Source: Nitrospirota bacterium (lineage in GTDB: Bacteria > Nitrospirota_A > Leptospirillia > Leptospirillales > Leptospirillaceae). From it: DNA of 12,090 nt. Below are positions 6,844 through 8,039 of this stretch, in pieces (the stretch's first letter is position 1; every line of letters begins with the position of its first letter). The translations under genes and the position numbers were made by a program. The notes under the pieces were generated by a model that had not been told where the DNA came from, ran no database searches, and was given only the letters and a program-made list of their open reading frames with translations. The DNA lies in NCBI GenBank assembly GCA_021844275.1, contig JAKBTR010000085.1:1-12090 (forward strand). The letters run 5' to 3'.

Positions 6844-8039
6844 ATCCGTCCAAGGTGTCGGTCGATGAAATCGACGTGCGGGGGAAAAGGGTTTTTCTGA
6901 GAGCGGATTTCAACGTTCCTCTCGATGGAGATCTTCATATCACCGATGATCGCCGGATCCGTCTGTCTTTGCCGACCATCAACTAGCTCATTGACGAAGG
7001 GGCGAAAGTCATTATCGGTTCCCACCTCGGACGTCCGAAGGGAAATGTTGATCCGAAATACAGCATGGCTCCGGTTGCAAAAAGACTTTCGCGGCTCCTG
7101 AACAAGGACATCCGTTTTTCGGATCGGGTTGTGGGGCCGGTAGTTGAGAGGGAAGTTGAGAAAATGGAGGCCGGCGATGTTCTTCTGCTTGAAAATCTTC
7201 GTTTCAACGCCGGAGAGGAGTCCAACGACCCCGAGTTTTCCCGTCAGCTTTCCCTTTTATGCGACGTCTATGTCAACGATGCGTTTGGAACTGCCCACAG
7301 GGCCCACGCATCTGTGGTGGGCCTCCCCTCTCTCCTCAAGACGGTGGCCATCGGTTTTTTGATGAAAAAGGAAGTCAATTATCTGCAGGGAGCCGTTTCC
7401 AGTCCGACCCGCCCATTCGTGGCCGTTCTGGGCGGAGGAAAAGTCTCGGGAAAACTGGGTGTGATCGCAAATCTCCAGGAGAAGGTGGATAAGATCATCA
7501 TCGGCGGGGGGATGGCTTTTACTTTTTACAAGGCGATGGGCTTTGAAATCGGCGATTCCCTGGTGGAAGAAAATCTCCTTCATATTCCCCTTGAGATGCT
7601 CGAGAAGTCCCGAAAAGGCGGATTTAAACTGTATCTGCCCGTCGACTGCATCGTGGCGGAGAGTCGGGACCCGACCGCTCCGACAAAGATCGTCCCCTAC
7701 CAGGAGATTCCGAAGGGCTGGACCGGTCTGGACATCGGGCCTGCTTCAGTGAGGCTGTTTGCGGAGGTCCTGGACAATGCCAAGACGATCCTGTGGAATG
7801 GTCCGATGGGCGTCTTTGAAATTGATGCCTATTCAAGGGGCACTTTTGCCATGGCGCATGCCGTGGCCAATTCGTACGCACTTACCGTTGTCGGCGGGGG
7901 GGACACGGCCCTCGCAGTTTATCGGGCCGGAGAGGCGGACAATATGACGTTCATTTCCACGGGAGGGGGAGCTGCGCTTGAACTTCTGGAAGGAAAGGAG
8001 CTTCCGGGACTGAAGGCGATTCCCGACAACGAACACTGA
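6840..8039 (+). CDS. pgk: Phosphoglycerate kinase, interrupted by an in-frame TAG at codon 49
   Basis: Pgk moves phosphate between 1,3-bisphosphoglycerate and ADP in the cytoplasm. From the ATG at 6840, which overlaps the gap stop and is preceded by GGAG, the frame codes for a 399-position Pgk of normal length. The N-domain carries RADFNVPLDG (21-30) and SHLGRPKG (61-68), which bind 3-phosphoglycerate. LLLENLRF, VLGGGKVSGKLG and GGGDTALAV (C-domain nucleotide site) follow, ending in GGGAALELLEGK. The single defect is TAG at 6984-6986, between LSLPTIN and LIDEGAKV, where the family normally has a residue such as Tyr; one base change from TAC or TAT would give it. No other stop or frameshift occurs. 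Restart at the internal ATG 7065 (codon 76) would lose both substrate-binding motifs and should be inactive. A sequencing error, a recent nonsense mutation or amber readthrough are the options. Confidence 0.92.
6984..6986 (+). other. In-frame amber codon inside pgk
   Basis: TAG lies in frame with the pgk ATG at 6840 (codon 49). Conserved Pgk sequence continues in the same frame on both sides, so this is a point change and not an indel. Confidence 0.95.

Follow-up and report, generated by a model that had tools for sequence, protein, structure and literature searches.

The pgk gene (phosphoglycerate kinase) in the window, i.e. the whole 12,090-nt stretch of DNA analysed here, is broken by an in-frame TAG at 6984..6986 on the forward strand. 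Judging from the comparisons with related sequences, this TAG is probably a single-base sequencing or assembly error in the metagenome contig (probability about 0.8). A wrong base introduced during metagenome sequencing or assembly would have turned a tyrosine codon into TAG. The organism, which is near Leptospirillum ferriphilum, would then most likely encode tyrosine here and make an ordinary full-length phosphoglycerate kinase, and the difference would have arisen in the data rather than in the cell. We favour a base error because the stop was unseen in any other sequence examined, the relatives carry intact copies and the gene shows no other flaw. The first-pass annotation of this DNA had offered three explanations: a base error, a recent null allele together with a second pgk, and amber suppression or recoding. 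The first of them is the one retained here; a second pgk seems unlikely, and suppression or recoding found no support.

The pgk frame extends over 6840..8039 on the forward strand. Its translation gave 399 codons and a terminal TGA, with the TAG at codon 49 as the sole internal stop, which confirmed the in-frame amber codon described in the first-pass annotation. In relatives from the same family, this position is a tyrosine codon. When the stop was replaced by X, the frame aligned to the Pgk of G009, the nearest of 21 family genomes by Pgk, across residues 1-399 without gaps and with 97% protein identity. The part of the gene from ATG 7065 matched positions 68-379 of the 379 positions of the phosphoglycerate kinase profile PF00162 (E = 6.3e-122). 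Across the coding sequences of the window, 1,025 of the 31,419 possible single substitutions (3.3%) create a stop. A scan of many contigs would therefore be expected to meet such a case occasionally, and a one-base stop such as the pgk TAG is not more than chance can give.

Translation could restart at ATG 7065, which is codon 76 of the frame. The resulting ORF (7065..8039, forward strand; P0019 in our protein search) has 324 amino acids and lacks the first 75 residues. As had been claimed before, both N-terminal motifs, RADFNVP (residues 21-27) and SHLGRPKG (residues 61-68), are missing from it. We take these to be substrate-binding motifs of Pgk. Inspection by eye of the 24 bases preceding this ATG showed no ribosome-binding site. 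With both N-terminal stretches absent and no such site seen, we judged the restart ORF unlikely to be a working enzyme, and as far as can be told from its sequence, the 324-aa form is probably none.

In the protein search, scores were computed for the 7,999 candidates with the most shared words, and the best 120 of these were listed. The top match, P0001, is a Pgk of the same population. It has 399 amino acids, is identical to the window frame at all 398 other positions and differs at residue 49, where it has tyrosine and the window has TAG. The earlier claim that the rest of the frame reads as a conserved, full-length Pgk is borne out by this protein. P0001 is present on 35 contigs, the longest of which is 120,642 bp, although these contigs are possibly reassemblies from few samples and need not be independent. 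The best species-named match among those listed was P0003 of Leptospirillum ferriphilum, which is also 399 amino acids long and 98% identical, and which likewise has tyrosine at residue 49 in contrast to the TAG of the window. Tyr49 was found in 73 of the best 74 listed proteins; the remaining one was P0019, the restart form of the window itself. P0019 occurs on one contig, whose 12,090 bp equal the length of the window, so that the window seems to be a complete short metagenome contig. The P0019 cluster represents six member sequences, among which there could be a further truncated copy. Over the whole best 120 of the 7,999 proteins, residue 49 was Tyr in 83, His in 19 and Arg in 17, and the single gap was that of P0019. 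As His or Arg stands there in some proteins, position 49 is not invariant across Pgk at large.

The family genomes gave a similar picture. All 21 have a single full-length pgk with no internal stop; G014 and G019 each have an additional pgk match of 39 residues. The equivalent of codon 49 is TAT in 13 of these genomes and TAC in eight. The codon comparison covered 27 loci, namely L081-L102 and five of 80 other loci, two of the five sharing their genomes with L081 and L082. The four genomes from outside the family had Tyr (two) or Arg (two) at this place, and none of the 27 loci compared had a stop. A search of viral contigs with the 27 bases around codon 49, allowing any third base, gave no match. 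Among the listed papers on Leptospirillum, none had a title about this stop.

We then compared the window with G009. Over 2806-12090 the DNA identity was 84%, so G009 probably belongs to a different species from the window. The order gap-pgk-tpiA-secG is common to both. Rates of substitution were calculated for the nine of 11 window genes with a match in locus L105; genes 9-770 and 767-1162 had no match there. All nine alignments were ungapped and no frameshift was seen. For pgk, dN was 0.013, dS 0.99 and dN/dS 0.014, with the reservation that a dS near 1 is rough. This dN/dS was the lowest among the nine genes. A pseudogene should show relaxed selection or more lesions, and neither was found in pgk, which had this low ratio, zero gaps and no second stop. 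On these rates, pgk is under strong purifying selection between the two species and carries no other lesion. The adjoining tpiA (8053-8829, forward strand) was the fastest-evolving of the nine genes against G009 (77% identity, dN/dS 0.153), while pgk was the slowest. The small gene at 2944-3096 on the forward strand encodes a protein of 50 residues, which is 96% identical in G009 and has no Pfam match.

A few points weigh against a base error. The 35 contigs of P0001 and the six-member cluster of P0019 carry the reservations given above, and the rest of the contig is clean, with no frameshift in the nine genes, so this is not an error-filled contig. Elsewhere in the window, pbp1A differs from its best match, P0121, at three of 790 residues, and the substrate-binding protein from its best match, P0140, at one of 578. 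These differences give no error rate, as both matches come from near strains.

If the base is correct, the TAG may be a genuine nonsense mutation that is rare, arose very recently and is confined to one population lineage; such an allele would make a non-functional Pgk and be in the course of being lost. A single substitution suffices for it. It must be very young, because P0001 matches the frame everywhere else. However, each of the 21 family genomes has one full-length pgk. Pgk is needed for sugar synthesis in an autotroph of this kind. A null allele of a central gene present in a single copy should vanish fast, and an assembler normally retains the majority base. We therefore regard a genuine nonsense allele as improbable, although not negligibly so. 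Alternatively, this gene might be a decaying extra copy, with a working pgk elsewhere in the genome; a second pgk had been among the suggestions of the first-pass annotation. Beyond the stop itself nothing speaks for such a copy. The conserved gap-pgk-tpiA-secG order and the dN/dS of pgk are both at odds with decay, and a second full-length copy was found in none of the 21 relatives. We rejected a second pgk on this last ground and consider a decaying duplicate very improbable.

The strain might also read TAG as tyrosine or another residue, through amber suppression or recoding. The only point in favour of this is the intact, strongly constrained frame beyond the TAG. In amber suppression and TAG reassignment, an in-frame TAG likewise lies inside a conserved, constrained gene. 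The window differs from such cases in having one interrupted gene, in having relatives without the interruption and with a Tyr codon instead, and in the continued use of TAG as a terminator. The first-pass annotation had counted nine TGA, one TAG and one TAA among the ordinary stops, and the same tally was obtained for the 11 complete, delimited genes of the window. The TAG ends a pyrE-like gene at 1941..2741 on the forward strand, and the aligned stop of G009 is also TAG. (The name pyrE is our reading: the protein scored 19.7 bits against Pfam Pribosyltran, below the curated cut-off of 26.3.) Reading through this TAG would add 63 codons until the next stop. The codon is thus still an ordinary terminator, which is not expected under reassignment proper. 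The small gene at 2944-3096 ends with TAA in the window and with TAG in G009. Reassignment should also interrupt several conserved genes, but only one of the 11 window genes, pgk, has an internal stop and the other 10 are uninterrupted. No tRNA with a CTA anticodon was found in the window, nor among 36 tRNAs of G009 with anticodons assigned by ARAGORN, a set which is incomplete (without Tyr, Trp, Cys and Ile tRNAs) and does not come from the host itself. TAG recoding was rejected on the pyrE terminator shared with G009 and the lack of a second interrupted window gene, and there is very little chance that suppression or recoding accounts for the stop. Even less credence is due to the idea that a natural strain retains an amber codon in a sole pgk and makes the enzyme with the help of an amber suppressor tRNA which evolved within that strain.

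The window also has a tRNA-like stretch at 1321-1391 on the forward strand. Its 3′ part, beginning near 1358, has matches in the DNA of 20 of the 21 family genomes. Five loci matching the stretch were scanned, and four of them (L143-L146) are Leu tRNA genes. In G009 the matching stretch (L140, G009:C87:67889) is a Leu tRNA gene upstream of pgk. Neither ARAGORN nor Rfam reported a tRNA at 1321-1391 of the window, and G021 (L142) has a similar stretch upstream of pgk, likewise without a tRNA call. The stretch in the window may represent the attachment site at one end of an integrated element. The adjoining region, 9-1162 on the forward strand, encodes one protein in which MtrA and PterinBD-DUF4346 domains were recognised and another that is MerT-like. 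Of the 21 family genomes, one (G006) encodes a relative of the former, with 61% identity, and this distribution fits a recently acquired island.

Most likely, the pgk stop is not a biological novelty. Our results advise caution: where a single metagenome contig shows a conserved gene with a lone in-frame stop, a wrong base is a better explanation than recoding, except when the same codon interrupts other genes or relatives share the stop. Should the stop in this pgk prove genuine and be suppressed, it would offer a rare example from nature of a central gene, present in one copy, that relies on nonsense suppression.
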